Assembly (NCBI GenBank): GCA_002197545.1
Contig: NFUO01000702.1
Span: 62,001-126,000 of the forward strand
DNA length: 64,000 nucleotides
Direction: 5' to 3'
Source: Acidobacteria subdivision 2 bacterium RH1 MAG20
GTDB taxonomy: Bacteria > Acidobacteriota > Terriglobia > Terriglobales > Acidobacteriaceae
This document shows, in pieces, positions 1,603 to 63,286 of this stretch. The notes under the pieces were generated by a model. It searched no databases and was not told the origin of the DNA. It saw only the letters and a list, made by a program, of their open reading frames with translations. Position numbers and translations under genes: made by a program. Within the stretch, counting starts at the first letter, position 1; each line of letters begins with the position of its first letter.

Positions 1603-1998
1603 GTGATCTTCCGACTGAACACATCTTCTGGCCAGCCCCTCTACCTGCAGCTCATGGAGCAGGTCCGTCACGCCGTTGAAACCGGCGTTCTACAGGACGG
1701 CGACCAGATGCCCGGCATCCGCACGCTGGCCGAAGAACTCGTCGTCAGCCATAACACCGTCGCCAAGGCATACACCGAACTCCAGCATGAGGGGCTTCTC
1801 GAACTGCGGCATGGTGCTGGTGCATACATCAGCGCGAAACAGCGGCACAAAACACGTACCGGCCAGGTACTCCAGGCACAAACGAAAGTTGCAGAGGTTG
1901 TCGAAGAGCTCCACGAAGAAGGATTCAGCGGAGAAGAGATACGCCGCCTCTTTGAGGCGCAGATTTTGCAGGTCTATCAAATTGCGAGGAAACGATGA
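1603..1998 (+). CDS. GntR family transcriptional regulator, YtrA subfamily
   Basis: This 131-residue protein starts with GTG. Residues 8-75 form a winged helix-turn-helix of GntR type, with the motif GDQMPGIRTLAEELVVSHNT and the wing LLELRHGAGAYI. The C-terminal part is short and helical (about 85-131). The lack of a large effector domain is the hallmark of the YtrA subfamily, which usually represses an adjacent ABC transporter. The stop overlaps the next start in an ATGA arrangement, so the two genes are translationally coupled. The dyad just upstream is the probable operator. The effector is unknown; cell-envelope stress or peptide antibiotics are typical for the subfamily. Confidence 0.9.
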   Translation: MIFRLNTSSGQPLYLQLMEQVRHAVETGVLQDGDQMPGIRTLAEELVVSHNTVAKAYTELQHEGLLELRHGAGAYISAKQRHKTRTGQVLQAQTKVAEVVEELHEEGFSGEEIRRLFEAQILQVYQIARKR

Positions 1999-2927
1999 GC
2001 CTGGAACGAATCATTCAAACCGAAGAACTGACGAAACACTATGGCCCTTTCAAGGCCGTGCAGGAACTAAGTTGCCGTGTCCGCCGAGAACGAATTACCG
2101 GTTTTCTCGGACGTAATGGCGCGGGCAAAAGCTCTACCATCAAGATGCTGCTGGGAATGATCAAGCCCACCTCAGGCTCCGGCACTGTACTCGGCCACCA
2201 CATCGATAACCCCAAAGAGTCGCTCGAAATCCGCAAACGTATTGCCTACGTCGGCGAAGACAAGGACCTCTACGGCTATATGACTGTCGAACAGTTGATC
2301 TGGTTCACCCGGTCGTTCTACGCAGACTGGCGGCCAGAGATTGAAAAGAAGCTGCTAAAGGAATATCGCCTCCCACTAAATCGCAAGGTGAAGGCCCTCT
2401 CCAAAGGGATGCGGACCAAACTGGCCCTTCTACTTGCGCTTTCGCGTCGTCCGGCACTGCTCATCCTCGACGAACCTACCGAGGGGCTGGACCCGATCTC
2501 GATTGAAGAGCTGCTGCAGACCCTGGTGGGCGCTCCCCTCGAAGGGACTACCGTCTTCTTCTCCTCACACCAGCTCTCCGAGGTCGAGCGCATCGCTGAC
2601 GACATCCTGATGATCGATAAGGGAAGATCGGTTCTCGACATGCCGCTCGACCAGATCCGCGAAAACTATCGCCGCATCACACTCGGTTTCGCGGACAAGC
2701 CACCCGCGCTCCCATCGAACTTAGACGGCATCGAACGAACCAGCATAAACGGCCGCCAGATCACCATCCTCGCCAGCCGCAATGCCGATGCCATCGCCCA
2801 ACTCGGCCGTGAGCGCAACGCTGTCGATATCGACGTCTCTCCCATCAGCCTCCGCGAGATCTTCATCACGACCGTCCAGGAGCAGAATCACCTCGACCAG
2901 CAGGAGCACCGCGATGTACTGGTATAA
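1995..2927 (+). CDS. ABC transporter ATP-binding protein, YtrB/CcmA type
   Basis: This is a 310-residue nucleotide-binding subunit. Walker A is GRNGAGKS (residues 39-46), the signature motif is LSKGM (135-139) and Walker B with its catalytic glutamate is LLILDEP (155-161), followed by a D-loop and the switch SSHQLSEVERIADD. The C-terminal 90 residues form the accessory domain common in drug and antibiotic exporters. It would energise the two membrane subunits encoded immediately downstream. The start overlaps the regulator stop by 4 bp and the stop overlaps the next start by 14 bp, so this is a tight operon. The substrate cannot be told from sequence. Confidence 0.93.
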   Translation: MSLERIIQTEELTKHYGPFKAVQELSCRVRRERITGFLGRNGAGKSSTIKMLLGMIKPTSGSGTVLGHHIDNPKESLEIRKRIAYVGEDKDLYGYMTVEQLIWFTRSFYADWRPEIEKKLLKEYRLPLNRKVKALSKGMRTKLALLLALSRRPALLILDEPTEGLDPISIEELLQTLVGAPLEGTTVFFSSHQLSEVERIADDILMIDKGRSVLDMPLDQIRENYRRITLGFADKPPALPSNLDGIERTSINGRQITILASRNADAIAQLGRERNAVDIDVSPISLREIFITTVQEQNHLDQQEHRDVLV

Positions 2928-3651
2928 GTCCTGGTGCGAGACCCGCACCGTCATTCTCCTCGGCATCGCCGCCATCGCAGTCGCCTGCGTCTTCATCGTC
3001 TTCAATCAGCAGACCATGCGCGACCACGCCAGTGCACCCATGACCTACATCGCCTTTGTCTGGAAAGCCGTCTACGACAGCTTCGGCCGCGATCTCTTTC
3101 TCATCCTCTGCATCATGCTGGGCAGCGGCGGCCTCTTGCAGGAGAAGGTCCACGGAACCACCGGCTTCACCCTCACCCTTCCCGTCAGCCGCCACAACAT
3201 TCTCTTCACCCGCGCATTCATCGGATACTGTGGCGTCCTCGCCATAGCTCTCACCCCGGCCATCGTCCTTCCAATCGGCTCCCGCTTGATCGGCCAATAC
3301 TATCCCGCAACCCAGGCACTCGGTTTCAGTCTTCTCTGGGCCTGTTGCGGAGCAATCTTCTACGGCTATACCTTCCTTCTCGCTCACCTCATGGAAGGCG
3401 AATACTCCGCCATGCTCGTGGCTGTACCCACGCTTATGGCATATGGCTTTCTCATGGCCATCCCTTGGCTCGCGCACTTTCCCATGCTCAACATCTTCAG
3501 CATCATCAACGGCGAAGACATGCCATTCTTCAACGAGCATTCGTACCTGCTCGTCGGCCCCATGCCCTGGCTCGCGCTCATTGTCATGCTGTTCATCGCT
3601 TCAGTCTTCGTCTTCTTTGCGGTGCGCCGCATGGAGCCGATGGATTTTTAA
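2914..3651 (+). CDS. ABC-2 type membrane subunit, first of two tandem paralogues
   Basis: I place the start at ATG 2914 (MYWYKSWCETRTVILLG). It lies inside the end of the ATPase gene and begins the same way as the next gene product, although the frame is open further upstream. The product is 245 residues with about six hydrophobic helices and the segment EKVHGTTGFTLTLPVSR, typical of ABC-2 permeases between helices 2 and 3. It is probably one half of the channel driven by the upstream ATPase. Similarity to the following protein (MLWYKVWRES, then KQNTLGFTLALPISR) points to tandem duplication, giving a heterodimeric pore. Confidence 0.85.
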   Translation: MYWYKSWCETRTVILLGIAAIAVACVFIVFNQQTMRDHASAPMTYIAFVWKAVYDSFGRDLFLILCIMLGSGGLLQEKVHGTTGFTLTLPVSRHNILFTRAFIGYCGVLAIALTPAIVLPIGSRLIGQYYPATQALGFSLLWACCGAIFYGYTFLLAHLMEGEYSAMLVAVPTLMAYGFLMAIPWLAHFPMLNIFSIINGEDMPFFNEHSYLLVGPMPWLALIVMLFIASVFVFFAVRRMEPMDF

Positions 3652-3668
3652 AATCGCAGGAGAGATTC

Positions 3669-4415
3669 ATGCTCTGGTATAAAGTCTGGCGCGAAAGCAG
3701 CGTCCGTTTCCTCATCTCCGCTACCGCCATCGCCGGCATCTGTCTGGTTCGTGTTCTCTTCGAGCACAGGTTCTTCCCCGGCGTCGCTCACGAAGCTCCC
3801 GGCGTTCACAACTACATCCAGTACCTCTACTGGACGATCTTCGCTGGCGCCGGACGCGGCTTTCTACAACTCTCCTGCCTCCTGCTCGGCCTCGGCGGCC
3901 TCCAGCGCGATCGCAAGCAGAACACTCTCGGCTTCACCCTCGCGCTTCCCATCAGCCGTCCTCGCCTCGTCGTAACCCGCGCCCTCGTCGGCTTCGTGCA
4001 GGTCTTCGCCCTGTCACTGTTTCCGCCATTCCTCGTCTGGGCCGCCTCGCCGCTCGTGCATCAATCCATGCCGCTTTCCTACGGCCTTGGCTTCGTCCCC
4101 TTCTGGACCATCGGTGGCCTATTCACCTTCGGCGTCACCTTTCTCTGCTCGGTCATCTTCACCAGCGAGTACACCGCGCTCGCCGTCGGTTACCTGTCCT
4201 ACATCTTCTATCTCGCCGCCTGCCGTCATCCCCGGCTCAGCCCCTACTCACTCCACGCAGCAGATTTCATGAGCGGACGCCTCGGCAACGCCATTGACCC
4301 CCATACCCTGCTCTGGACAGGCGCAATTCCACTTGCCCTCATCGCCGGCTTCGCTCTGGCGGCGATCACTCTCATCGCAGCTAGCACCTTCATCACCACC
4401 CGACAAGACCTCTAA
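3669..4415 (+). CDS. ABC-2 type membrane subunit, second tandem paralogue
   Basis: ATG 3669 follows a good ribosome binding site (CAGGAGA at 3657-3663); the open frame upstream of it is an overlap with the previous gene and is not coding. The protein has 248 residues with about six membrane helices and is a paralogue of the preceding subunit, with the same N-terminal YK-W pattern and the same LGFTLALPISRPR segment. It is the last gene of the regulator-ATPase-permease-permease operon. There is no obvious terminator directly after the stop at 4415; a dispersed repeat follows 50 bp later. Confidence 0.85.
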   Translation: MLWYKVWRESSVRFLISATAIAGICLVRVLFEHRFFPGVAHEAPGVHNYIQYLYWTIFAGAGRGFLQLSCLLLGLGGLQRDRKQNTLGFTLALPISRPRLVVTRALVGFVQVFALSLFPPFLVWAASPLVHQSMPLSYGLGFVPFWTIGGLFTFGVTFLCSVIFTSEYTALAVGYLSYIFYLAACRHPRLSPYSLHAADFMSGRLGNAIDPHTLLWTGAIPLALIAGFALAAITLIAASTFITTRQDL

Positions 4416-4465
4416 CCATACCAGTTTTTCGCATTAAGCATGCAATTTCTTGCCCCAACGCAACC

Positions 4466-4525
4466 ACGTCATCTCGACCGAAGGCGGCGCTTTTGCCGCC
4501 GCAGTGGAGAGACCCCTGTATTTCG
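4466..4525 (+). repeat. Dispersed palindromic repeat, copy 1
   Basis: This copy runs from ACGTCATCTCGACC to CCTGTATTTCG and carries an internal hairpin GGCGGC-GCTTTT-GCCGCC. The same ends and architecture recur about fifteen times in the window. The rest of this 401-bp gap (4526-4700) is AT-richer and holds nothing I can identify. Confidence 0.85.
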
Positions 4526-4700
4526 TTCTTGTTTCTAATCCGCATTTCCCCTCACCAATCCGCGGGCGAATCGGTGTAGGTTTCCCTAGCCCCGCCCCAA
4601 CAAAATCCTGTCAAGCCCCAATCTCATCTAACTCAAACAAAACAAATTAACATACAGATTGCCGACTAGTTTCACTCCATCCGCTACACTAGAATTAGTA

Positions 4701-4735
4701 GATAAAAAAGAAGGCCCAGCGACAACGCTGGGCCT
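4701..4735 (-). terminator. Rho-independent terminator of the Rieske oxygenase gene
   Basis: A perfect 10-bp stem AGGCCCAGCG-ACAA-CGCTGGGCCT spans 4712-4735. Read on the minus strand it is followed directly by a T-rich run (TTCTTTTTTATC). It lies 82 bp past the stop of the minus-strand gene at 4817. Confidence 0.9.
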
Positions 4736-4816
4736 AACTCGTTTAGAAAGAAGACTTTGCCTATAAAGCATCTAAAATGAAGACTTTACACTGAAAGTAC
4801 CAGGGGTACCCCCCGG

Positions 4817-5902
4817 TCAGCTCCGCCAGTGCAGCGTAACCGGCCCATCGAGCGGATGCTCCCCAGTCCCCTTCAAGCGGGCCTGTTTCAGCGCGAAGTA
4901 CCACTTCGCCGGCTTGTCCGCATCGTCGATCAGCATCAGCGCCGGATTGAACCGCAGCCCCTCGGCCTGCTGGATCATCGTCTCTTGATCCTGCCGCACA
5001 AACCGCGCTCCAAAGAACGTAGCAATCGAGGTCACAAAGGGAACGCTATAAAAGACATTCCACGCGGCATAGACATCGATCCTGCAGGTCGAAGCCGTCA
5101 CCGGAGTCACCGTAGTCAAGCTGGAAAACCATTTCTTCCCGCACCGGATCGTCTCATACCGGCGATTCGGCAGCACAAAGTCGATCGTCGTTGTAATCGG
5201 TTCGCCATACACACCCAGCAGCTTATAAGGAGCGCTGTTGCCCGAAGGAGCATGAGCAGACATCCGAAACCCCTGTGGAATCGGTTCAAAGTGCTTCGTC
5301 TTCTCGTGGATGCTCGCCCGGCTGCGCCACCACCACGCCTGATGCACAAACGGCCCATGCGCCGGGTCCATCAATCCGATAATCCCGTGGTCCACATTGC
5401 AGGGCAGGTCGGCCATCAGATGCGCGCTGCGGTACTGCTCGGAAAACTTCGGCAGCTCAGGCACAGGAGGTCGCGAATCTCCTCCGCGTGCTGAACCCGG
5501 CTGCGGAACATAGACCCACGCATAGCCATCGCGTTCCTCACAGGGAAACGCGCCAGCAAAGATCTTCGTCGCATCGAGCGTGTCATGCCCGGTCAGCGAA
5601 GGGATTTCGGCACACTGCCCGCTGCAAGGCTCAAAGCGCCAGCCATGATACTTGCACTGCACCGTCTCGCCGTCGAACCAACCCGCCGAAAGCGGAATCC
5701 CCCGATGCGGACAAAGGTCCCGCATGGCAAACACCTTGCCATCGTTCTTGCGGCCCAGCAGCAGCGGAACTCCGAGGAGCATCGCCGTCTTCGTCCTGCC
5801 CTTGCGCAACTCAGTGGCCCGCAGAGCCGGATACCACTCGCCGAAGATAAGCTCGGTCGGCGGCGGCGCGGCATTCCCAACTTGAACCAGATCACTCATC
5901 AT
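4817..5902 (-). CDS. Rieske non-heme iron oxygenase, alpha-subunit type
   Basis: The 361-residue protein has an N-terminal Rieske [2Fe-2S] domain with ligands Cys64, His66, Cys83 and His86 (LCPHRG and CKYHGW). It is followed by a catalytic domain whose mononuclear iron motif D-x2-H-x4-H is clear in MDPAHGPFVH. This architecture belongs to ring-hydroxylating, demethylating or desaturating oxygenases; the closest style is the pheophorbide oxygenase/vanillate demethylase group. A partner reductase is not encoded nearby, so electrons must come from elsewhere. The gene stands alone with its own strong terminator. Two adjacent methionine codons mark the start at 5902. The substrate is unknown. Confidence 0.9.
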   Translation of the reverse strand: MMSDLVQVGNAAPPPTELIFGEWYPALRATELRKGRTKTAMLLGVPLLLGRKNDGKVFAMRDLCPHRGIPLSAGWFDGETVQCKYHGWRFEPCSGQCAEIPSLTGHDTLDATKIFAGAFPCEERDGYAWVYVPQPGSARGGDSRPPVPELPKFSEQYRSAHLMADLPCNVDHGIIGLMDPAHGPFVHQAWWWRSRASIHEKTKHFEPIPQGFRMSAHAPSGNSAPYKLLGVYGEPITTTIDFVLPNRRYETIRCGKKWFSSLTTVTPVTASTCRIDVYAAWNVFYSVPFVTSIATFFGARFVRQDQETMIQQAEGLRFNPALMLIDDADKPAKWYFALKQARLKGTGEHPLDGPVTLHWRS

Positions 5903-5968
5903 GCAGTCAGCCTGAGTCTACGACAAATCTACGACAAATCAGTTCCCCCCGACCCGCCCTTAGGACAC

Positions 5969-6075
5969 ACGTCATCTCGACCAAACCCTGAGCGAAGTCG
6001 AAGGGGCAGTGGAGAAACTCCCGCCTACGTCATCTCGACCGGAGCGAAGCGGAGTGGAGAGACCCCTGTATTTCG
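5969..6075 (+). repeat. Two tandem copies of the dispersed palindromic repeat
   Basis: Copy 2 (5969-6020) is degenerate, with an inserted CCCTGAGCGAAGTCGAAGG block and an altered right end. Copy 3 (6027-6075) is a compact version with the internal palindrome CCGGAGCGAAGCGG. The pair ends 35 bp before the GTG start of the glycosyltransferase. Its translation creates a spurious in-frame N-terminal extension of that gene. Confidence 0.8.
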
Positions 6076-6110
6076 TCTTTGCCGTGGCCTTTCACAAATA
6101 CACTGGTGAC

Positions 6111-8051
6111 GTGCCTCCGATTCCCGGCAACGCGCCAGCCCTATCCTCTCCACGCCGCAATCGACTCATCCTGCTCGCCCTCTGGTTCTTCTTCTACGCC
6201 AGCTTTACCCTGCTCACGCCGCCGCTTCTCGATGACGCCGACTCCGTCCACTCCGAAGTCGCCCGCGAGATGCTCGTCCGCCATGACTGGATTACCCTCT
6301 ATGCCAACGGCATCCGCTACCTCGAAAAGGCCCCTCTCCTCTACTGGAGCATGGCCACCAGCTTCAAACTCTTCGGAGTCCACACCGCTGCTGCTCGCCT
6401 GCCGCTGGCCTTCACCGTCCTCGCGCTGGCGCTGGCAATCGAAGCCTTCGCCCGACGCGCCTTCCACTCCACCCGAGCCGGTCTCTACGCCGCGCTCATC
6501 CTGCTCTCCAGCTTCGGCATCTTCATCTTCACTCGCATCACGATCCCAGACGTCATGGTCTGCCTCTGGCTCACACTCGCCCTCTTCTGCTACTGGCTCA
6601 CTGAAAGCGATCCAGCCCAGCAATACCGTCCCAATCGGCTCCTGTGCTGGGGATTCGCTGCCTGCTGCGCCCTCAACGTCCTCACCAAAGGACTCATCGG
6701 CATCGTCTTTCCAGTCCTCATCGTCCTCGCGCACCTTCTGCTCACTCGCGGCATCCGCGGAACCCTCATTCGCCTCCGCCAGCTCTATCCAATCTCAAGC
6801 GTCATTGTCTTCCTCGCCATCGCCGCGCCATGGCACATCCTGATCGCCCTCGCCAACCCCGGCCAGGGCAACCCGGGCCACCTCACCTTCATCCACGGCC
6901 ACTGGTCCGTCCCAGGTCCAACGCAAGGCAACGTCCACGGCTGGCTATGGTTCTACTTCGTCAACGAGCAGGTCCTTCGCTACCTCAACCTCCGCGTGCC
7001 GCGTGACTACGATACTGTTCCCCTCGTCCTCTTCTGGGGACTGCTCCTCGTCTGGCTGATGCCGTGGAGCGCCTATCTCTTCAAGGCCATAGCCACCGTC
7101 CCCTGGGTGAAATCCCTGCACCGCCAGTCACTCGATGCCCTGCAAAGTACGCGCCTGCTCCTGGGAATCTGGGCGGCGCTTCCCATGCTCTTCTTCAGCT
7201 TCTCCACCCGGCAGGAATACTACGTCCTGCCCGCGCTGCCAGCCCTCATCCTGCTCATCGCCGCATGGCTGGCAGACGAAGCAGATGAGGCCGAATCCTT
7301 CACCGTGCCGAACCGCCTCGTCGTCGCTGGACAACGCATCTCCGTCCTCCTTCTCATTCTCGGCTCCATTGCCGCCCTCGCCGCCGGGTTCTTCATCCTG
7401 CACTCCCACCCTGTCGGCCCGGATACCGACCTCGCCGCGCTGCTGAAACAGAACCCCGGCGACTATGCGCTCTCCTTCGGTCACTTCCTCGACCTCGATG
7501 CGCGAGCAATGGGGGCCTTCCGCACGCCACTCGCCATCACTGCCATCGCACTTTTTGGCGGAACGCTCGCAAACTGGTTGCTGCGCCGCGACTACAAACC
7601 GCACACCGCCAACCTCTGGCTGGCCGCTGCCACCTTTGCCTTCCTGATGGCCGCTCACATGGGACTGCAAATATTCTCCCCAGTCCTTACCTCATACAAA
7701 CTGGCCACCGCCATCGCGCCAGAGATAAAACCCGACGATCTCATCGTCATCCACGGCGAGTACGAGAGCGCGAGCACTCTGGGCTTCTATCTCCAACACC
7801 CCGCACCCGATACCCAGCCCATCCACATCCTCGACGGCCGCAGCTCCAACCTCTGGTACGGCTCCTTCTTCCCCGACGCTCCACCGATCTTTGAGGACGA
7901 TACCTCCCTCGCTCTCAAGTGGAACGGCGTGCGCCGCATCTTTCTCTGGCAGGACCTCGATCGGCCCGTGCCTACTCTCCCCGGCAAGGCCTTCTTTATC
8001 ACGCAGAGTGGCGGCAAAGAGATTCTTAGTAATCAACCGAATCCGTATTAG
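6111..8051 (+). CDS. ArnT-like (PMT/GT39-83 family) membrane glycosyltransferase
   Basis: The product has about 646 residues from GTG 6111. The open frame reaches back to 6009, but that stretch is dispersed repeat, so I reject the longer form. The protein has about 12 membrane helices. The first periplasmic loop LLDDADSVHSEVAREM carries the acidic catalytic residue of polyprenyl-phosphate-dependent transferases, followed by the family segment RYLEKAPLLYW. The C-terminal third is a soluble periplasmic domain. ArnT moves an aminoarabinose from undecaprenyl phosphate to lipid A; family members in other bacteria glycosylate other lipids or proteins. No arn sugar genes are nearby, so donor and acceptor are open. 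A ribosome binding site is not evident. Confidence 0.85.
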   Translation: MPPIPGNAPALSSPRRNRLILLALWFFFYASFTLLTPPLLDDADSVHSEVAREMLVRHDWITLYANGIRYLEKAPLLYWSMATSFKLFGVHTAAARLPLAFTVLALALAIEAFARRAFHSTRAGLYAALILLSSFGIFIFTRITIPDVMVCLWLTLALFCYWLTESDPAQQYRPNRLLCWGFAACCALNVLTKGLIGIVFPVLIVLAHLLLTRGIRGTLIRLRQLYPISSVIVFLAIAAPWHILIALANPGQGNPGHLTFIHGHWSVPGPTQGNVHGWLWFYFVNEQVLRYLNLRVPRDYDTVPLVLFWGLLLVWLMPWSAYLFKAIATVPWVKSLHRQSLDALQSTRLLLGIWAALPMLFFSFSTRQEYYVLPALPALILLIAAWLADEADEAESFTVPNRLVVAGQRISVLLLILGSIAALAAGFFILHSHPVGPDTDLAALLKQNPGDYALSFGHFLDLDARAMGAFRTPLAITAIALFGGTLANWLLRRDYKPHTANLWLAAATFAFLMAAHMGLQIFSPVLTSYKLATAIAPEIKPDDLIVIHGEYESASTLGFYLQHPAPDTQPIHILDGRSSNLWYGSFFPDAPPIFEDDTSLALKWNGVRRIFLWQDLDRPVPTLPGKAFFITQSGGKEILSNQPNPY

Positions 8052-8134
8052 CCTTTTTAGATTATTAAAACGTACCTCAATGGCTGTATCTTGTTGGAAC
8101 GCAGAACGCATGAACAAGAGGGGATAGTCCTGCA

Positions 8135-9499
8135 ATGAATAAGATGGTCTTTATTAAGATGCTGGTAGTTTCTGTTCTTACCGGCATCATTCTTATTGCG
8201 CTGGCAGCCGTCTATGGCATACTCGTCAGCCGGGAGAGCTACCGCGAAGATGCCGTCAAAAGTATTTCCGACAGCTATGCTGGCTCTCAGCAACTGATAG
8301 GTCCGGTATTTGTTCAACCCTACACGCAAACCGTCGAAGACATAACTATCGGTGACAAAGGGGATCGCCGTGTTAACTCGCATAAGGTTGAAGGCAGCTA
8401 TCTGATCTTTCCCAGCACCTTGGCCATTCATGGTGTTATGCGGCCTAGCGAACGTCATCATGGCCTCTATAAAGTCACCGTATATGAACTTGAAAGCCAT
8501 CTGGAAGGCACTATTAAAATTCCTGCTTCCGGACTCACCGGCCAGATTACTTACGGAACTCCCTACCTCGCGCTTCGTCTCAGCGATGTTCGCGGCATTA
8601 TTGGTAGCCCAACCCTGGTAGCGAATGATAAGCAAGTCCAATTCACGGGCATTGTCACCGAAAGCGCAGGAAGCTGGAAGCCGAATCTACAGGCCTTATT
8701 GGCTGACACCCCTGGAGGAATTCCATCTAACATTACTTTCGCGATTGACCTTACCCTCGCGGGCACACAGCAGCTCTCTCTCACTCCTGTGGCAACAACG
8801 AACCGCTTTGAACTTACTTCCGTCTGGCCTACGCCACTCTTTGCAGGTAAGTTTCTACCTCGCACTCGCGAAGTGACGAACAAAGGCTTTCAGGCGGTCT
8901 GGGAGATCTCTTCACTCGCTGCTGCCACGCAGAACCAGATGACTACACAAAATGCTGCGGATATTGACTCCGTCGACGTCAAACTTCTCAACCCGATCGA
9001 TCCTTACAAACTCTCCGACCGTGCAGTAAAGTATGGCGTACTCTTTGTCCTGTTGACCTTTGGCGGCTTTTTCCTCTTCGAGATTGTGAAGCGCTTGCCT
9101 ATTCATCCCGTCCAATATCTATTGGTCGGTTTCGGACTCACTCTTTTCTTTCTTCTGCTCATCAGTCTCAGTGAGCACATCGCTTTCGCAGCGGCTTATC
9201 TTATCGCCAGCATTGCATGCATTGGTCTTTTGACCTACTACCTCTGTTTTGTTCTCCATAGCGTCATCTACGGAGCGTGGTTTGGATCAATGCTGATGAC
9301 GCTTTATGCAGCCATCTATGGCCTTCTCATTTCGGAGGACAATGCCTTGATGCTTGGTTCACTGCTGCTATTCGCGTTGCTCGCCGGAATCATGATTGCC
9401 ACCCGTAAAGTTGACTGGTATCAAGGAAGCGCCGAGTTGATGAATGTCAAAGCCGCGCAGAGCGCAGTCCCCCCACCACCACATCCAACAGATTCATAA
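8135..9499 (+). CDS. creD: CreD/Cet family inner membrane protein
   Basis: The 454-residue protein has the CreD layout: one N-terminal membrane helix (residues 8-30), the segment LIGPVFVQPYT, a large periplasmic beta-rich domain to about 300, then five closely spaced membrane helices ending before a short cytoplasmic tail. CreD in Enterobacteria affects colicin E2 tolerance and envelope integrity and is controlled by CreBC, whose genes are not in this window. The start has a purine-rich site (AGAGGGGA) upstream. The 3' end faces the next gene convergently with 8 bp between. The segment is less GC-rich than its neighbours, which may hint at transfer. Confidence 0.88.
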   Translation: MNKMVFIKMLVVSVLTGIILIALAAVYGILVSRESYREDAVKSISDSYAGSQQLIGPVFVQPYTQTVEDITIGDKGDRRVNSHKVEGSYLIFPSTLAIHGVMRPSERHHGLYKVTVYELESHLEGTIKIPASGLTGQITYGTPYLALRLSDVRGIIGSPTLVANDKQVQFTGIVTESAGSWKPNLQALLADTPGGIPSNITFAIDLTLAGTQQLSLTPVATTNRFELTSVWPTPLFAGKFLPRTREVTNKGFQAVWEISSLAAATQNQMTTQNAADIDSVDVKLLNPIDPYKLSDRAVKYGVLFVLLTFGGFFLFEIVKRLPIHPVQYLLVGFGLTLFFLLLISLSEHIAFAAAYLIASIACIGLLTYYLCFVLHSVIYGAWFGSMLMTLYAAIYGLLISEDNALMLGSLLLFALLAGIMIATRKVDWYQGSAELMNVKAAQSAVPPPPHPTDS

Positions 9500-9507
9500 G
9501 TGTAAAC

Positions 9508-10677
9508 CTAATCAACCCGCGTAATCCGCCCATCGCGCAGATGAAACCGTTCACCGCGCCAAACTACCGTATCGCCTGCAAAACTCCACGCCCAAAAACC
9601 AAGCCCAAAAAAATCCCGCAGCGGCAGCAGCCACAAATCTCGCAGCACCTGTCCATCACGCAGAATTCCAACGCCCACAGAAAGCGCAACCGCAACCCGC
9701 GCCAGCACCACCACGCTCAGCAACGAGAAGCTCCACAGCGCAAAACCGCTAGTGATGCACGTAATCAGCGCCCACGGCAGGGCATAGGTAATTCCCAACC
9801 CGACATATCCCAGCTTGCGCGAGTCGCGCGTCGATCGTGCCCAGCGTAGTTGATGAACGCAGAAGCCGCGAAAACGATACGCGGGAACGGTCGTCTCCAC
9901 CACCTCGTAGCACAGCTCCACATGATAGCCGGCGGCGGCGATGCGCTCTCCCATCTCGTAGTCGTCGGCGAGATACTCCACCAGCGGCTCCAGACCGCCT
10001 GCCTTTGCCAACACAGTCTTGCTTGTCGCCAGCGTCGAGCCCAGCCCGAACCGAATCCCGCCTTCCAGTTTCCGCGCCGTCAGTACGCCGGGCAGAAAGT
10101 CGGTCGAGATGCCCAGTGCCTCCAGCCTCGACCACAGCGTTCTGCCGCTGCTGCTCTCGGCTGTGCGGCCAATGTAGGGCGCCGTCACCATCCCTACTGC
10201 TTCGTCCGCAAAACACATCATCACGCGAGCGAGATACAGCGGCGAAACATAGATGTCGCTGTCGTTGATCAGCACATGCTCATACCGCGCCTCGTGCAGC
10301 ATCTGCACCAGGTTGCTCACCTTGCCCGAAGTTCCCAGCCGCTCGCGGCACTCCACCAGGCGAATCGCGCAGTCGGGAAACTCCTCCCGCAGCCGGGCAA
10401 TCTCGTTAACTGCGGGATCGTCCATACTGCTCACGCCGAACACAATCTCGAAGTTGCCTGCGTACTGCTGGCGGCAATGGCTCACCAGTCCGGCGTACAT
10501 GTGCGGGTCAACACCCTTCACCGGCTTCAGAATACTGACGTCCGGCGTATAGCCGGTGTCCCTGGGACGCCGCATCCAATAGTGCGCGAAATCCCGTGTT
10601 CCCCATAACGCCAGCAACAAATACGCCAACCCGGCAAGCGTCAACAGTGTGGTGATCGCCTCAATCGCTGTCGCCAT
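9508..10677 (-). CDS. hpnI: HpnI-like GT21 family glycosyltransferase (ceramide glucosyltransferase type)
   Basis: This is a 389-residue processive-type GT-A glycosyltransferase with an N-terminal membrane helix and about three C-terminal helices. The four GT21 signatures are visible: the first Asp in SSMDDP, the second in INDSDI, the third in LADDYEMG, and the (Q/R)xxRW motif in HQLRWARSTR. In bacteria this family includes HpnI, which adds N-acetylglucosamine to bacteriohopanetetrol in composite hopanoid synthesis; hopanoids are common in Acidobacteriota. The deacetylase and radical SAM partners (HpnK, HpnJ) are not adjacent, so the acceptor could be another lipid. The start is assigned at 10677, 183 bp from the divergent side. 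Confidence 0.8.
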   Translation of the reverse strand: MATAIEAITTLLTLAGLAYLLLALWGTRDFAHYWMRRPRDTGYTPDVSILKPVKGVDPHMYAGLVSHCRQQYAGNFEIVFGVSSMDDPAVNEIARLREEFPDCAIRLVECRERLGTSGKVSNLVQMLHEARYEHVLINDSDIYVSPLYLARVMMCFADEAVGMVTAPYIGRTAESSSGRTLWSRLEALGISTDFLPGVLTARKLEGGIRFGLGSTLATSKTVLAKAGGLEPLVEYLADDYEMGERIAAAGYHVELCYEVVETTVPAYRFRGFCVHQLRWARSTRDSRKLGYVGLGITYALPWALITCITSGFALWSFSLLSVVVLARVAVALSVGVGILRDGQVLRDLWLLPLRDFFGLGFWAWSFAGDTVVWRGERFHLRDGRITRVD

Positions 10678-10742
10678 TCCATTAGTCTAACGAACCCACT
10701 CATACTCCTTATCCATCGCTGTTTCTTCCACACCACCAAACA

Positions 10743-10785
10743 TGTCATCTCGACCGAAGCGAAGTGGAGAGACCCCTGTATTTCG
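10743..10785 (+). repeat. Dispersed palindromic repeat, compact copy
   Basis: This short 43-bp copy, GTCATCTCGACCGAAGC through CCTGTATTTCG, lacks the long internal hairpin. It lies between the start of the HpnI-like gene and the 3' end of the permease gene. Confidence 0.8.
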
Positions 10786-10860
10786 TCTTTGCCGTTGCTT
10801 GTTTTGATCGGTGATATCGGTGTAGATCGGTGTTAAGACTTTCGCCAGCCCGCCCGTATT

Positions 10861-12114
10861 CTACTCGTACCGCAGTGCATCGATCGGGTTCAGGTTCGCG
10901 GCCTTCCATGCGGGATAGATGCCGAACAACAGGCCGATGCCGCAGGAACACAAAAATGCCACGGCCACCCAAACCGGAGAAAGCAGCGAGGGAAACACAA
11001 GGCGCACACCAAGAGCAATCCCACCCCCAATCAAGACCCCGATGACACCCCCTACAGCACACAAGGTAATCGCCTCCAGCGTGAACTGCGCCAGAATGGT
11101 CTGCTTGGTGGCCCCAATCGCCTTGCGCACGCCAATCTCGCGTGTCCGCTCGGTCACGCTGACCAGCATAATGTTCATCACGCCGACGCCGCCCACCAGC
11201 AGCGCCACGCTGGATAGCGCAAACAACAGCAAAAACAGGCCGCTCGTGATGTTGTTCCACAGCCGCGTTAACGAGTCCGTGCCGAAGATGGCGAAGTTGT
11301 CAGGAGCGGCATTGGCTACCTTGCGCCGCCGTCGCAGCAGTTCGGTCAGCTCGTCTTCTACCAGAGGCCGGTTCTTTGGATCGTCATATTTCAGCGTGAT
11401 CCAGTAATCGAGCTCCTCTGGATGCATATAGTGGAACGTCGTGATGGGAAAGTAGGCATGGTTGTCCTGCGGATTCTTTCCTCCGCCAAACGCCTGCTTC
11501 TGTTTCTCCAGAACGCCGACGACGGTGAACACCATTCCGGCTGCCTGCACTTCTTTCCCTACCGCGCTTTGGCCGGGGAAAAGTCCGTCCGCGGTATCGC
11601 TGCCCAGGACCGTTACTTTAGCTGCTCGCTCCTGATCTCCCTCGTTGAAGAACCTGCCTTCGCGCATGTCCAATTCGCTGACGTCTTTCTGCGAGGGGGT
11701 GTCGCCTTCGAGGATGGTGCCCTGCATGCTCTTGCCGCCGCCCTTGATCGCGGTAACTCCGGCGCGTCCCGGCGCAGTGTTGTCGGTGTACTGCAACGCC
11801 GGCGAGACCGCAACCACGTGCGGCAGGTCGCGCATCGCCATCGCATCGTCATAGGTCAACTGTTTGCGCGTCAGCATCTCGGTCGTGGGCCGCGAGCCGA
11901 ACACCGGGAAGCGGAAGACGAATAGAACGTTCGAGCCCAGCGACTTCACCAGGTCTTCCACCCGGCTGTTCAACCCATTCACAACCGACGAAATAATGAT
12001 CACCGTCATCACGCCGATGACGATCCCGAGAATCGTCAGGCCGCTGCGCAGCTTGTTCGTCCGCAGCGTATCCAGCGCCATCACTACCGTCTCTTTGACA
12101 TCGCCAATCCGCAT
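10861..12114 (-). CDS. MacB-type ABC transporter permease, distal gene of a pair
   Basis: The 417-residue protein has the MacB/LolCE topology. An N-terminal helix lies in TILGIVIGVMTVIIISS, then comes a periplasmic core domain (about 70-250), and the FtsX domain has three C-terminal helices with RTREIGVRKAIGATK. It belongs to tripartite or mechanotransmitting exporters that work with a MacB-like ATPase and often an RND-type adaptor. Neither partner is encoded in the window, although they may lie elsewhere. It follows the paralogous permease by 57 bp and is probably co-transcribed with it. Confidence 0.9.
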   Translation of the reverse strand: MRIGDVKETVVMALDTLRTNKLRSGLTILGIVIGVMTVIIISSVVNGLNSRVEDLVKSLGSNVLFVFRFPVFGSRPTTEMLTRKQLTYDDAMAMRDLPHVVAVSPALQYTDNTAPGRAGVTAIKGGGKSMQGTILEGDTPSQKDVSELDMREGRFFNEGDQERAAKVTVLGSDTADGLFPGQSAVGKEVQAAGMVFTVVGVLEKQKQAFGGGKNPQDNHAYFPITTFHYMHPEELDYWITLKYDDPKNRPLVEDELTELLRRRRKVANAAPDNFAIFGTDSLTRLWNNITSGLFLLLFALSSVALLVGGVGVMNIMLVSVTERTREIGVRKAIGATKQTILAQFTLEAITLCAVGGVIGVLIGGGIALGVRLVFPSLLSPVWVAVAFLCSCGIGLLFGIYPAWKAANLNPIDALRYE

Positions 12115-14087: not shown

Positions 14088-14191
14088 ACGTCATCTCGAC
14101 CGAAGGCGGCGGGGTCCCCAGCGAGCGCACTTGCTCGTTGGGGTGCAAGACGGCGCTTTTGCCGTCGCAGTGGAGAGACTCCTGTATTTCG
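14088..14191 (+). repeat. Long composite copy of the dispersed palindromic repeat
   Basis: This 104-bp copy has the standard ends. Its internal loop is expanded by a second hairpin module (GGGGTCCCCAGCGAGC to GCTCGTTGGGG), which also occurs on its own near 24921. The outer stem GACGGCG-CTTTT-GCCGTCG is retained. Confidence 0.8.
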
Positions 14192-41540: not shown

Positions 41541-41694
41541 GAAGGTTCCTTATGGTGATACCGGGCTTTTTGCGAAATTGCCGCGCAACTTTGGATTATA
41601 AGACGATGGGTTGAAAACTGGCATATCGAGCCGATAATCGACGCTTGATGAATGGTGGGGTAACGCCGGAACCGGCATGAGACAAAGGCAAAGA

Positions 41695-41815
41695 CGAAAT
41701 ACAGGGGTCTCTCCGCTGCGGCGTGCGATGAAGCCGCACGCCTTCGGTCGAGATGACATTGGGGTTGGAGTTTGTAATAGTTCCAACCGCAGATCCCTCC
41801 GCTTCGCTGCGGGAT
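41695..41815 (-). repeat. Inverted copy of the main dispersed repeat plus a second-class copy
   Basis: CGAAATACAGG to GAGATGACAT (41695-41759) is the main repeat on the minus strand with internal stem GGCGTGCG-ATGAA-CGCACGCC. At 41789-41815, CCGCAGATCCCTCCGC to GGGATGAC is the other class. The remainder of the 314-bp gap upstream of the E2 gene (41541-41694) shows no gene. Confidence 0.8.
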
Positions 41816-61138: not shown

Positions 61139-61199
61139 GCGTCATCTCGACCGAAGGCGGTGTTTTTTGCCGCCGCAGCGGAGAGACCCCTGTCTTTCG
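61139..61199 (+). repeat. Dispersed palindromic repeat between rpmH and rnpA
   Basis: GCGTCATCTCGACC to CCTGTCTTTCG with internal stem GGCGGT-GTTTTTT-GCCGCC. The right end carries one change (TGTCTTTCG). The remainder of the 288-bp interval before the small gene at 61386 has no other recognisable feature. Confidence 0.85.
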
Positions 61200-61615: not shown

Positions 61616-62053
61616 ATGCCTCATCTTGCGTCATCTTCGGCCAGCTCCGGCAAAGCCAAAGCCGCCATCACCTTTCGCCTGCGCAAACATGCCGACTACC
61701 AGCGCGTCTACAAAGCCAGCCGCAAGCAGTTCAGCAAGCAGATGAGCTACTTCTTCACCCTCCGCCCGCAGCTTGGGCCGGACGGCACCCCCCTCCGCGA
61801 CGAGGATGCCGCCACACCTCGCGTTGGCCTCACCGTAGGCAAGGTCATGGGCAAGGCCGTCGATCGCAACCGAATCAAACGCCGCATGAGAGAGGCCGTC
61901 CGCAAGAACCTCCCCACGCTCAACGCTCCGGTCGACGTCATCCTGCACCCTCGCCGCAGCGTCATCGACCTGGACTTCGCCCTCCTCGACCGCGAAGTAG
62001 CCAACGTCTTCCGCGCCATCCAGAAGGCCACCCAGCAGAAAACCGGCAATTAG
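61616..62053 (+). CDS. rnpA: Ribonuclease P protein component
   Basis: The 145-residue protein supports the RNase P RNA encoded at 13533. It shows FRLRKHADYQRVYK at the start of the fold and the RNR signature in GKAVDRNRIKRRMREAVR. The N-terminal 15 residues are Ala/Ser-rich and may not be conserved. A small insertion (LGPDGTPLRDEDAATP) lengthens it compared with the usual 115-120 residues. The gene follows rpmH in the common order but is spaced from it by 518 bp. Confidence 0.96.
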   Translation: MPHLASSSASSGKAKAAITFRLRKHADYQRVYKASRKQFSKQMSYFFTLRPQLGPDGTPLRDEDAATPRVGLTVGKVMGKAVDRNRIKRRMREAVRKNLPTLNAPVDVILHPRRSVIDLDFALLDREVANVFRAIQKATQQKTGN

Positions 62054-62128
62054 TTAAAGCCCACCTCAAATCCACGTCATCTCGACCGAAGCTCCATCCC
62101 CACGTCCTCTTTGACTCACCCCATAACG

Positions 62129-62192
62129 CACGTCATCTCGACCGGAGGCGGCGCTTTTTGCCGCCGTAGTGGAGAGACCCCTGTATTTCGTC
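62129..62192 (+). repeat. Left copy of a perfect 64-bp inverted repeat
   Basis: This dispersed-repeat copy is identical, base for base, to the reverse complement of 62588-62651. It begins at CACGTCATC and ends at TATTTCGTC, with internal stem GGCGGC-GCTTTTT-GCCGCC. A partial left end of another copy lies at 62074-62090. Confidence 0.92.
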
Positions 62193-62199
62193 CTTGCAG

Positions 62200-62550
62200 T
62201 TAGCCAGAAGGAAACGATACGGGCCGTTTAAGGTCCTGTTCTCGAAACGGCTCGATGGGCTTGACCCAATCTTCGCTCAGATCGCGCCATGTAGGGTTTT
62301 CGGCGACGATGAGACGGATTTTCTTGATTCGAGACCAGCGCTTCAGTTGTTTTTCCCGGGCGATAGCTGAGTGAACATCGGCGAAACGCTCGAAGTAGAC
62401 AAGGTCCCTGATGTTGTAGCGTGCGGTAAAGCTGGTGGGGGAGGAGCCGTTTTTGTGCTGGAGGACGCGGAGTTCGAGTTCGGTTGTGACACCGATATAG
62501 AGGTGTTTAAAGCCGCTTGCAAGAATGTAGACGTAAGAGATCTCCTGCAT
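62200..62550 (-). CDS. GIY-YIG nuclease domain protein
   Basis: This 116-residue protein starts at ATG 62550 (MQEISYVYIL). It is a stand-alone GIY-YIG domain: YVYILASG gives the first half of the signature and HLYIGVTTELELRV the second, with the catalytic Tyr and Arg. A Glu-containing helix AREKQLKRWSRIKKIRL follows. This is the YhbQ/URI-like class of small single-domain proteins, many of unknown role, related to homing endonucleases. It is enclosed by a perfect 64-bp inverted repeat of the dispersed family. An in-frame ATG codon pair 11 codons upstream is an alternative start. Confidence 0.88.
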   Translation of the reverse strand: MQEISYVYILASGFKHLYIGVTTELELRVLQHKNGSSPTSFTARYNIRDLVYFERFADVHSAIAREKQLKRWSRIKKIRLIVAENPTWRDLSEDWVKPIEPFREQDLKRPVSFPSG

Positions 62551-62587
62551 GGTCTGAAGTATGACAGCTTCCTGGCACATCAAAGAA

Positions 62588-62651
62588 GACGAAATACAGG
62601 GGTCTCTCCACTACGGCGGCAAAAAGCGCCGCCTCCGGTCGAGATGACGTG
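62588..62651 (-). repeat. Right copy of the perfect 64-bp inverted repeat
   Basis: This is the dispersed repeat on the minus strand, exactly complementary to 62129-62192. It lies 37 bp upstream of the GIY-YIG start, so any promoter of that gene would lie in or beside it. Confidence 0.92.
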
Positions 62652-62753
62652 GATTTGGGATGAGTCAAAGAGAACATGGGATGACGAAGTGGTCGAGACG
62701 ACGTGTGTTCGGGCGGAAACTGAGTACGGAGTTGGTTTGCCCGCCCCAAACGC

Positions 62754-62930
62754 ACGTCATCTCGACCGAAGGCGCGCAGTTTTATCGTGCGCCGCAGTGG
62801 AGAGACCCCTGTATTTCGTCCTTCGCCTTTACCCCTTCCCCCAACCGCCTGAACTCGTGCCTCATGAAAGAAATACAGGCTTCTCCTCTCCGCTACGCTA
62901 AAAACCGCGCGGCTCCGGTCGAGATGACGT
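62754..62930. repeat. Further pair of inverted dispersed repeats upstream of yidD
   Basis: Copy 62754-62818 is on the plus strand, with internal stem GGCGCGC-AGTTTTATC-GTGCGCC. Copy 62868-62930 is on the minus strand, diverged, with CCGCGCGGCTCCGG in the stem. They face each other across 49 bp that hold no gene. The whole 62551-62995 gap contains only repeats and short unassigned sequence. Confidence 0.8.
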
Positions 62931-62995: not shown

Positions 62996-63286
62996 ATGCC
63001 CGACGCCAAACCCAGCCTCGCTATCCGCATCGCCTTCGGGGCCTACAAGACCGTGGTCTCGCCCATCCTGCACGCCTTCAGCCCGTCCCAATGCCTCTAC
63101 CTGCCCACCTGCTCCGAATACGCCTACGTCGCGCTGGTCCGTTTCGGCCTGGTCCGCGGCTCCTGGCTGGCCCTGCGCCGGTTTGCCCGCTGCCACCCTT
63201 TCGCGAAAGGCGGCCTCGATCCCGTTCCCAATCGAAACCCGGAGCCAGTCCATTCCGTCTCTATTCACACAGACCGTTTACCATAG
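62996..63286 (+). CDS. yidD: Membrane protein insertion efficiency factor YidD
   Basis: The 96-residue protein starts at ATG 62996; the longer open frame is repeat-derived. It has the YidD pattern with an amphipathic N-terminal helix (RIAFGAYKTVVSPILHAF), the conserved CLYLPTCSEYAYVAL, and RFARCHPFAKGGLDPVP with three conserved cysteines. YidD aids insertion of membrane proteins together with YidC, whose gene starts 61 bp downstream. The C-terminal tail is short and variable. Confidence 0.94.
   Translation: MPDAKPSLAIRIAFGAYKTVVSPILHAFSPSQCLYLPTCSEYAYVALVRFGLVRGSWLALRRFARCHPFAKGGLDPVPNRNPEPVHSVSIHTDRLP

Follow-up and report, generated by a model that had tools for sequence, protein, structure and literature searches.

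The window, the whole 64,000-nucleotide stretch of DNA analysed here, is best read as carrying an autonomous element from a mobile family of the REP type, with the dispersed copies of its repeat as non-autonomous relatives. An inverted-repeat search of the window identified two 64-nt arms that are 100% complementary and 395 nt apart, as a first-pass annotation of this DNA had described. The left arm (62129..62192, plus strand) consists of a tag, ACGTC, an imperfect hairpin, ATCTCGACCGGAGGCGGCGCTTTTTGCCGCCGTAGTGGAGAG, and then ACCCCTGTATTTCGTC. The right arm (62588..62651, minus strand) is identical in the opposite orientation, and both tags point outward. The arms enclose only one gene, that for a GIY-YIG nuclease of 116 amino acids (62200..62550, minus strand), identified as an open reading frame (ORF) with a match to PF01541. 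The gene starts with ATG at 62550 (the listed ORF, 62200..62583, begins at a TTG further upstream); the stop codon is 7 nt and the start codon 37 nt from the respective arm. The association between the nuclease and the repeats is well supported. Comparison of sequences also makes it likely that the nuclease is the enzyme dedicated to moving or maintaining these repeats.

The same repeat is scattered through the window without the gene, as had been noted before. With up to 3 mismatches, the core ACGTCATCTCGACCGRAGG occurs 15 times, compared to an expectation of 0.04, and none of 100 shuffled sequences reached 15. Ten of the 15 copies lie away from the element, at 4466, 5969, 6027, 10742, 14088, 20381, 24859, 24896, 41741 (minus strand), and 61139. 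Examples are a copy with a longer hairpin apex, seen by inspection of the sequence (14088..14181, plus strand), and two copies from the core search, one on the other strand (41670..41759, minus strand) and a lone one (61139..61195, plus strand) upstream of the ORF at 61616..62053 (plus strand). We take this ORF, the neighbor upstream of the insertion, to be rnpA, and the downstream neighbor (62996..63286, plus strand) to be yidD. From the outside in, a full copy comprises an A/C-rich stretch, ACGTC, ATCTCGACCG, a variable apex, GTGGAGAG, and ACCCCTGTATTTCGTC. At the element itself, imperfect inverted similarity (88%) continues beyond the 64 bp in a pair of outer A/C-rich arms (62099..62123, plus strand, and 62656..62680, minus strand), and outer arms resembling these also lie beside the tags of copies in Granulicella sp. 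S156. An extra partial copy, with the tag and the first stem half, was found by the core search at 62074..62092 (plus strand). Inverted-repeat and core searches together identified a gene-less pair of 177 bp that adjoins the element (62754..62930), with its copies tagged outward. This pair is a non-autonomous form, the counterpart of pairs of 132 to 202 bp in Granulicella sp. S156.

The 116-amino-acid protein matches the Pfam GIY-YIG family, PF01541, with an E value of 2.3e-11 and 44.3 bits (cutoff, 22.6). PF01541 was the only domain found with Pfam in the enclosed protein; neither a Y1 HUH domain nor another transposase domain was found. Y9, Y19, R29, E67, and N86 are invariant in alignments of 23 and 41 diverse family members, and we assume that these Tyr, Tyr, Arg, Glu, and Asn columns represent the tyrosines of the GIY and YIG motifs and residues of GIY-YIG catalysis. 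Differences at the three codon positions numbered 152/89/440, summed over 12 close, partly overlapping pairs; since the changes are mostly at third positions, the protein appears to be kept by purifying selection. It looks like a selected, active nuclease. The closest solved structures by profile, and in that respect its nearest likeness, are the UPF0213 GIY-YIG proteins PDB 1zg2 (E value, 2e-9) and 1ywl (E value, 9e-7). A family gene in Sphingobium sp. TomMM7A (L311) is annotated as “excinuclease ABC subunit C,” and names of this kind may have hidden the link to REPs.

We examined the flanks of homologues from one-per-species genomes. The search alignment comprised 35 of 120 homologues among the matches listed. 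Of the 342 stretches that it detected, 105 encode a relative; we kept the best 80 of these and analysed 79 loci. For each locus, the upstream flank was aligned with the reverse complement of the downstream flank, with other positions in the same locus as controls. In 49 of the 78 usable loci, this inverted-flank score exceeded all of the controls from the locus; in the other 29 it did not (L011 was too short, and a few loci had fewer than 10 controls). A strict criterion required a YGTC-ATnnn...n'n'n'AT hairpin in the flank with its tag outward. Such hairpins were present upstream of the gene in 47 of 79 loci, downstream in 48, and on both sides in 35; with the tag inward, the counts were 18/79 upstream and 18/79 downstream. 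Among 3,916 control positions in the same loci, strict hairpins occurred upstream of 3.3%, downstream of 3.0%, and on both sides of 0.15%. The first-pass annotation had raised the idea that flanks of homologues carry the repeat more often than neighboring genes do, and this is what we observed: for 491 neighboring ORFs, strict hairpins were upstream of 29, downstream of 26, and on both sides of 5, and for the 163 small ORFs among them the numbers were 8, 10, and 4.

The tag formula came from the inverted-flank alignments, and the 79 loci on which we first used it were the ones it had been drawn from; hence, the sets fetched later weigh more. For the Acidobacteriaceae (30 loci fetched, with 4 duplicates of earlier loci left out), 6 of 26 loci had strict hairpins on both sides and 22 of 26 had an inverted-flank score of at least 14, a loose threshold that flanks of different loci reach in 5 to 23% of cases. 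For the Alphaproteobacteria, 8 of 29 were bracketed by the strict criterion and 17 of 29 by score, compared to 2 of 238 control windows. Among named replicons (12 chosen of 34), 7 were strictly bracketed, 3 further ones were bracketed by score, and 2 were without. In three of the four sets, strict two-sided tagging was seen for a minority of the homologues. Bracketed loci span Acidobacteria, Bacteroidetes, Clostridia, Chloroflexi, Patescibacteria, and Proteobacteria, and judging by locus titles, at least 7 phyla are represented among loci bracketed on both sides. Two loci had further features. In Planktothrix agardhii plasmid p1 (L310, 689-973), TGTCATTCTGAGT repeats occur in the flanks of a GIY-YIG gene that is located between an MmeI-type restriction gene and the DISARM gene drmA. 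At L104 (G028:C11:369725-370606), two family GIY-YIG genes lie near each other, surrounded by long direct repeats.

A set of 20 weak family matches was considered as a repeat-free paralogue control and proved unusable. Eleven of the 20 are bracketed by other inverted repeats (score of at least 14, compared to 6% of cross-locus pairs), the remaining nine score below 14, and a strict YGTC hairpin is present on both sides in 1 of 20. Loci L222, L223, L224, L230, L231, L233, L235, and L237 belong to a second GIY-YIG subfamily, of the YYVYILQCNDDSYYTGVTN type, whose repeats mostly do not have the YGTCAT tag (for example, TTGTCACCCTGAGCGCAGTCGAAGGGCT and CCTTCATCCTGAGCTTGTCGAAGGACGAAGG). This second subfamily may likewise propagate untagged TCATCCTGAG-type repeats.

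The bracketing arms share a formula: (C/T)GTC, AT plus 3 nt, an apex, the complementary 3 nt plus AT, and then CT or CC (76 and 27, respectively, of 117 paired tags). Of the 184 outward tags in flanks, these 117 have behind them an exactly complementary partner for their own stem. When stems were re-dealt among the tags in 500 trials, the mean was 24.7 and the maximum 39. There are 14 different stems among the tagged hairpins. Such pairing within each tagged copy is compensatory change and the strongest indication that the hairpin is important. Folding of single copies gave a z score of -4.1 for the canonical form and -1.7 to 0.5 for the other four; the predicted fold of the left arm in the window has an energy of -11.3 kcal/mol (z, -1.7). 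Because single-copy fold energies are unremarkable except for the canonical form, our claim for a hairpin rests on covariation.

Granulicella sp. S156 carries two intact family genes (L007 and L016); in a third, the reading frame is interrupted by a stop codon. One intact paralogue lies between TGTCATCTCGACCG-type arms, which have 136 copies in the genome with at most 1 mismatch (reversed control, 0), and the other lies between GTCATCCTGAGCCGTAGGCGAAGGACC arms, which have 40 copies with at most 3 mismatches (control, 0). The arms of each paralogue match each other (scores of 51 and 47.5) and not those of the other paralogue (cross scores of 7 and 10.5). For 21 elements in four other genomes, the score was 19.0 for own arms versus 9.8 for cross arms (122 comparisons; p = 7e-8), with low own-arm scores for several of the 21. 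RAYTs and their own REPs follow the same one-enzyme-one-repeat pattern as these S156 paralogues. Such specificity within a genome, together with two-sided tagging in 35 of 79 loci compared to 5 of 491 ORFs and 4 of 163 small ORFs, makes it exceedingly improbable that the bracketing is coincidence or reflects terminator-like repeats around a small gene, even though the repeats are abundant in some genomes and chance neighbors occur on one side at about 3%. In Neisseria, such repeats are very many, and bracketing there proves little for that reason.

Copies without the gene also form pairs in S156. For the first 100 of the 136 sites, 28 outward-facing neighbors lie within 1 kb of each other, and no neighbors have other orientations. 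The lengths of these outward pairs cluster at 143 to 149 bp and 200 to 202 bp; the gene-bearing pair is 494 bp. In 17 of 19 gene-less pairs that were fetched, a GGCG-type apex is combined with one of another type. The first-pass annotation had proposed an autonomous element with non-autonomous relatives, as for RAYTs and REPs but with a GIY-YIG nuclease, and both the bracketing and these miniature pairs support it. A loosely conserved TGAAYCACCCCARAAY arm lies outside the tags of S156 copies. Its core occurs 37 times in the genome with at most 1 mismatch (reversed control, 2); we fetched 30 of these occurrences, and 22 of them adjoin a tag (both strands checked). We considered the outer arms as a target site and rejected this, since they are beside the tag in those 22 of 30 and mostly absent from the empty site; we count them as part of the element. 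Pairing of left and right outer arms within a copy is barely above that for re-dealt arms (9.7 versus 8.4; p = 0.018). No target-site duplication longer than 2 nt was found for 20 S156 copies, and to that extent the enzyme signature of insertion is absent.

We compared sites between relatives, a check that the first-pass annotation had suggested, and found some sites empty or occupied by a pair that lacks the gene. In the window, 943 bp separate rnpA from yidD. Both genes were located in 28 of the 30 relatives fetched, and there the interval ranges from -3 to 156 bp and contains no tag. The two relatives closest by rnpA, L110 and L111, were left out because their loci did not include yidD; in L110, the gap is taken up by other DNA. 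In G099, the closest relative and one of the two left out (L140), the gap holds about 6.5 kb of other DNA (approximately 1717-8285), which suggests that this spot took insertions more than once. G099 has an element 75% identical to that of the window, repeats included, but it lies behind yidC rather than in the rnpA-yidD gap (yidC ORF, 8647-10467; element, 10604-11128). The S156 element and its outer arms are missing in genome G380, where 15 nt separate the stop codon from a terminator-like hairpin, and at the same site genome G379 has a different tagged repeat. At another, orthologous site, Granulicella mallensis X5P3 (L002) has a 490-bp gene-bearing element and G379 has a 145-bp gene-less pair; the flanks are 93% identical, and the two arms are in swapped order. 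The segment from tag to tag behaves as a unit, since gene-less and gene-bearing forms share their ends and X5P3 and G379 differ inside constant flanks.

The X5P3/G379 site, with the same outer flanks and swapped arms, is also what would be expected if the nuclease only copied its gene into existing gene-less pairs, by cassette exchange, and the pairs arose otherwise; the hydrolytic chemistry of GIY-YIG enzymes would suit this as well. On the other hand, the S156 element is missing from G380 along with its outer arms, and the rnpA-yidD gap is untagged in 28 relatives, so new sites must also have been gained unless these are precise losses. We consider such pure homing unlikely, though far from negligible. 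An empty site can mean gain or loss in any single case. Of 3,081 locus pairs, only 20 have a gene in common among the nearest two per side. Four Flavobacterium-type loci share their position, as do L021/L027, L034/L035, and L039/L040. Since some loci share a position, elements can also be inherited in place. Homologues in conserved positions without repeats had been named as evidence that would count against mobility. Conserved positions are indeed rare, but flanks in 29 of 78 loci do not rise above every control, and a few groups do share a position.

Gene and repeats were then counted in whole genomes. In 120 genomes of the family Acidobacteriaceae, the gene was matched in 73, patchily and in 1 to 9 copies per genome; a few of these matches are weak and perhaps represent another subfamily. 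This distribution bears on whether the nuclease could be a host-side partner of the repeats, serving the cell in a housekeeping or domesticated role by trimming or resolving the cruciforms of REPs, with nearby repeats being regulatory or tolerated. A small single-domain protein under purifying selection would fit such a role, as would the preference of REPs for the 3' ends of genes, reported in the accessible part of PMC3733652, and the description of the E. coli-type RAYT as a domesticated transposase in that of PMC8266576. However, a patchy gene in multiple copies with rarely conserved position, with stop codons in some copies in other genomes, and with two paralogues that have separate repeat types in one genome, makes a host-side role improbable.

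The number of repeats depends on the presence of the gene, in part as the first-pass annotation had supposed. The 73 genomes with the gene contain a median of 29 copies of the pattern YGTCATYYYGASCGNAG, and the 47 without it contain 6 (p = 3e-7, uncorrected for kinship); 4 or fewer copies were found in 7 of 73 and 22 of 47 genomes, respectively. Exceptions run both ways: G022 and G016 on one side, with G022 having the gene and no repeats by the one pattern used (which may miss other repeat types), and G033 (149 copies) and G080 (89 copies in a 1.9-Mb assembly) on the other, which keep repeats without the gene. Of 240 alphaproteobacterial genomes, 92 have a family match (weak ones included). 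The canonical form, searched as YGTCATYCCCGCN{3,6}GCGGGRAT, turned up in 28 of these 92 and in 12 of the 148 genomes that lack the gene (p = 1e-5, uncorrected for kinship). At least 9 copies of it were present in 15 of 92 versus 2 of 148 (p = 2e-5).

Y1 transposases are encoded in 106 of the 120 family genomes, and the repeats of G033 and G080 do without the GIY-YIG gene. Either would be expected if a Y1 transposase or RAYT, or a DDE transposase, spread the repeats and the GIY-YIG gene were a passenger between two copies. Repeat number also weakly tracks Y1 copies in the 47 genomes without the GIY-YIG gene (rho = 0.32; p = 0.03), but not in the 73 with it (rho = -0.06). Among the 14 genomes that lack Y1 transposases, the six with the GIY-YIG gene have 53, 59, 61, 84, 163, and 195 repeats, compared to 0, 0, 0, 0, 1, 3, 5, and 26 for the eight without (p = 0.002), indicating that Y1 enzymes are not needed for large numbers. 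Of 30 Y1 loci (L334-L363), 3 were too short; none of the other 27 has a YGTC hairpin on both sides, although 20 of 27 have inverted flanks of their own. It would also be surprising for a passenger to come from one and the same gene family in Acidobacteria, Bacteroidetes, Clostridia, Chloroflexi, Patescibacteria, and Proteobacteria. On this survey, which covered Y1 enzymes, we regard spread by another transposase as quite improbable, and a role for the nuclease itself in moving or maintaining the repeats as the preferred reading.

Repeats with the same tag have been described previously. The portion of Di Nocera, De Gregorio, and Rocco (2013) available to us (PMC3733652) describes CGTC-tagged REPs with a CGTC or TGTC tag, AT-starting stems of 8 to 9 bp, a loop of 4 to 5, a CCA tail, and outward (HH) dimers; members include Neisseria dRS3 and Rickettsia RPE-4/6. 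The phyla given there are Proteobacteria, Chlorobi, Bacteroidetes, Spirochaetes, and Thermotogae, with Acidobacteria not among them in that portion. The authors sought transposase genes, and the same portion reports none as associated: these REPs “apparently lack a dedicated transposase,” and the enzyme was suggested to have vanished or to be shared with other elements. The count of repeats in genes left out hypothetical proteins of fewer than 120 amino acids. Azospirillum lipoferum is among the species listed in PMC3733652, and we found a GIY-YIG gene between two canonical-form REPs in A. lipoferum; canonical-form CGTC repeats flank a GIY-YIG gene in L032, L156, L200, and L302, and Alphaproteobacteria, including A. 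lipoferum, are among the carriers of this arrangement. The element in L302, on A. lipoferum plasmid AZO_p3, lies between the Fe-S assembly genes sufB and sufC.

Compared to CGTC REPs as described in that portion of the source, the repeat in the window is alike in having an unpaired tag at the outer end (ACGTC on both arms), in being mostly intergenic with many copies, and in forming outward HH dimers (the pair at 62754-62930 and the 28 in the first 100 S156 sites). It differs in that its hairpin is longer and imperfect with a variable apex, rather than having a stem of 8 to 9 bp, a loop of 4 to 5, and CCA. The 3' half of the hairpin ends in GAGAC, leaving the first A unpaired, and the tail is CCC. 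We conclude that the repeat is a relative of the CGTC superfamily rather than a strict member.

The system also invites comparison with RAYT (TnpA-REP) REPtrons, in which, according to the parts of three papers available to us (PMC2817692, PMC3116915, and PMC8266576), a Y1 HUH transposase is paired with GTAG REPs or REPINs. Common to both are an autonomous gene between inverted tagged hairpins and many miniature inverted pairs in the same genome, whereas the window has a GIY-YIG nuclease and YGTC in place of the Y1 HUH enzyme and GTAG. By analogy, the window system would work like RAYT/REP without being a member. In the open-licence PMC literature, as far as its text was available and with preprints and subscription papers outside its scope, no link between GIY-YIG proteins and bacterial REP-type repeats was found; in the main text of a 2025 REP survey, in the part available (PMC12306157), “GIY” and “transposase” are absent.

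Two further kinds of mobile DNA offer partial parallels. Free-standing GIY-YIG homing endonucleases of the I-TevI/Seg type are themselves mobile genes, with an allele-specific target and joining by host repair. They resemble the window element in having a GIY-YIG gene as the mobile unit, and differ in that, to our knowledge, no dispersed hairpin family accompanies them. MITE/IS pairs consist of an autonomous element and deleted inverted-repeat relatives, as here, but neither a transposase domain nor a target duplication was found in our case.

These comparisons suggest how the nuclease might act. It would recognize the unpaired YGTC tag and the hairpin of its own repeat type, in single-stranded or cruciform DNA, and would cut at or near the tag. 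GIY-YIG enzymes hydrolyse DNA and, unlike RAYTs, should form no covalent enzyme-DNA link; joining would therefore be left to host repair. Repair might then copy another copy of the repeat into the cut, with or without the gene and in either orientation. Between tagged hairpins, this would be homing or gene conversion, and a new site would be gained now and then. Insertion at clean sites, such as the rnpA-yidD gap and the S156 site, would take a further step. We propose this repair-copying chemistry tentatively and think it somewhat likelier to be wrong than right. A broader proposal, at only a little under an even chance, is that GIY-YIG nucleases specific for their own hairpins propagate the CGTC/TGTC REPs of many phyla by tag cutting and host repair, and would form a class so far undescribed.

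The mover of CGTC-type REPs was left open by their authors in the portion of PMC3733652 considered here, and a gene bracketed by such repeats in many phyla makes the question directly testable. The candidate enzyme has about 100 residues, and synthetic hairpins could be offered to it as substrates. If the nuclease moves the repeats, it would be a case of DNA mobility by a hydrolytic nuclease, with no transposase chemistry. This would also explain many genes named “GIY-YIG nuclease family protein,” “putative endonuclease,” or “excinuclease ABC subunit C.” If the same is true for the second subfamily, GIY-YIG/REP pairing would be a general counterpart of RAYT/REP. The patterns described here make the nuclease the probable missing enzyme behind the spread of one widespread kind of palindromic repeat in bacteria.
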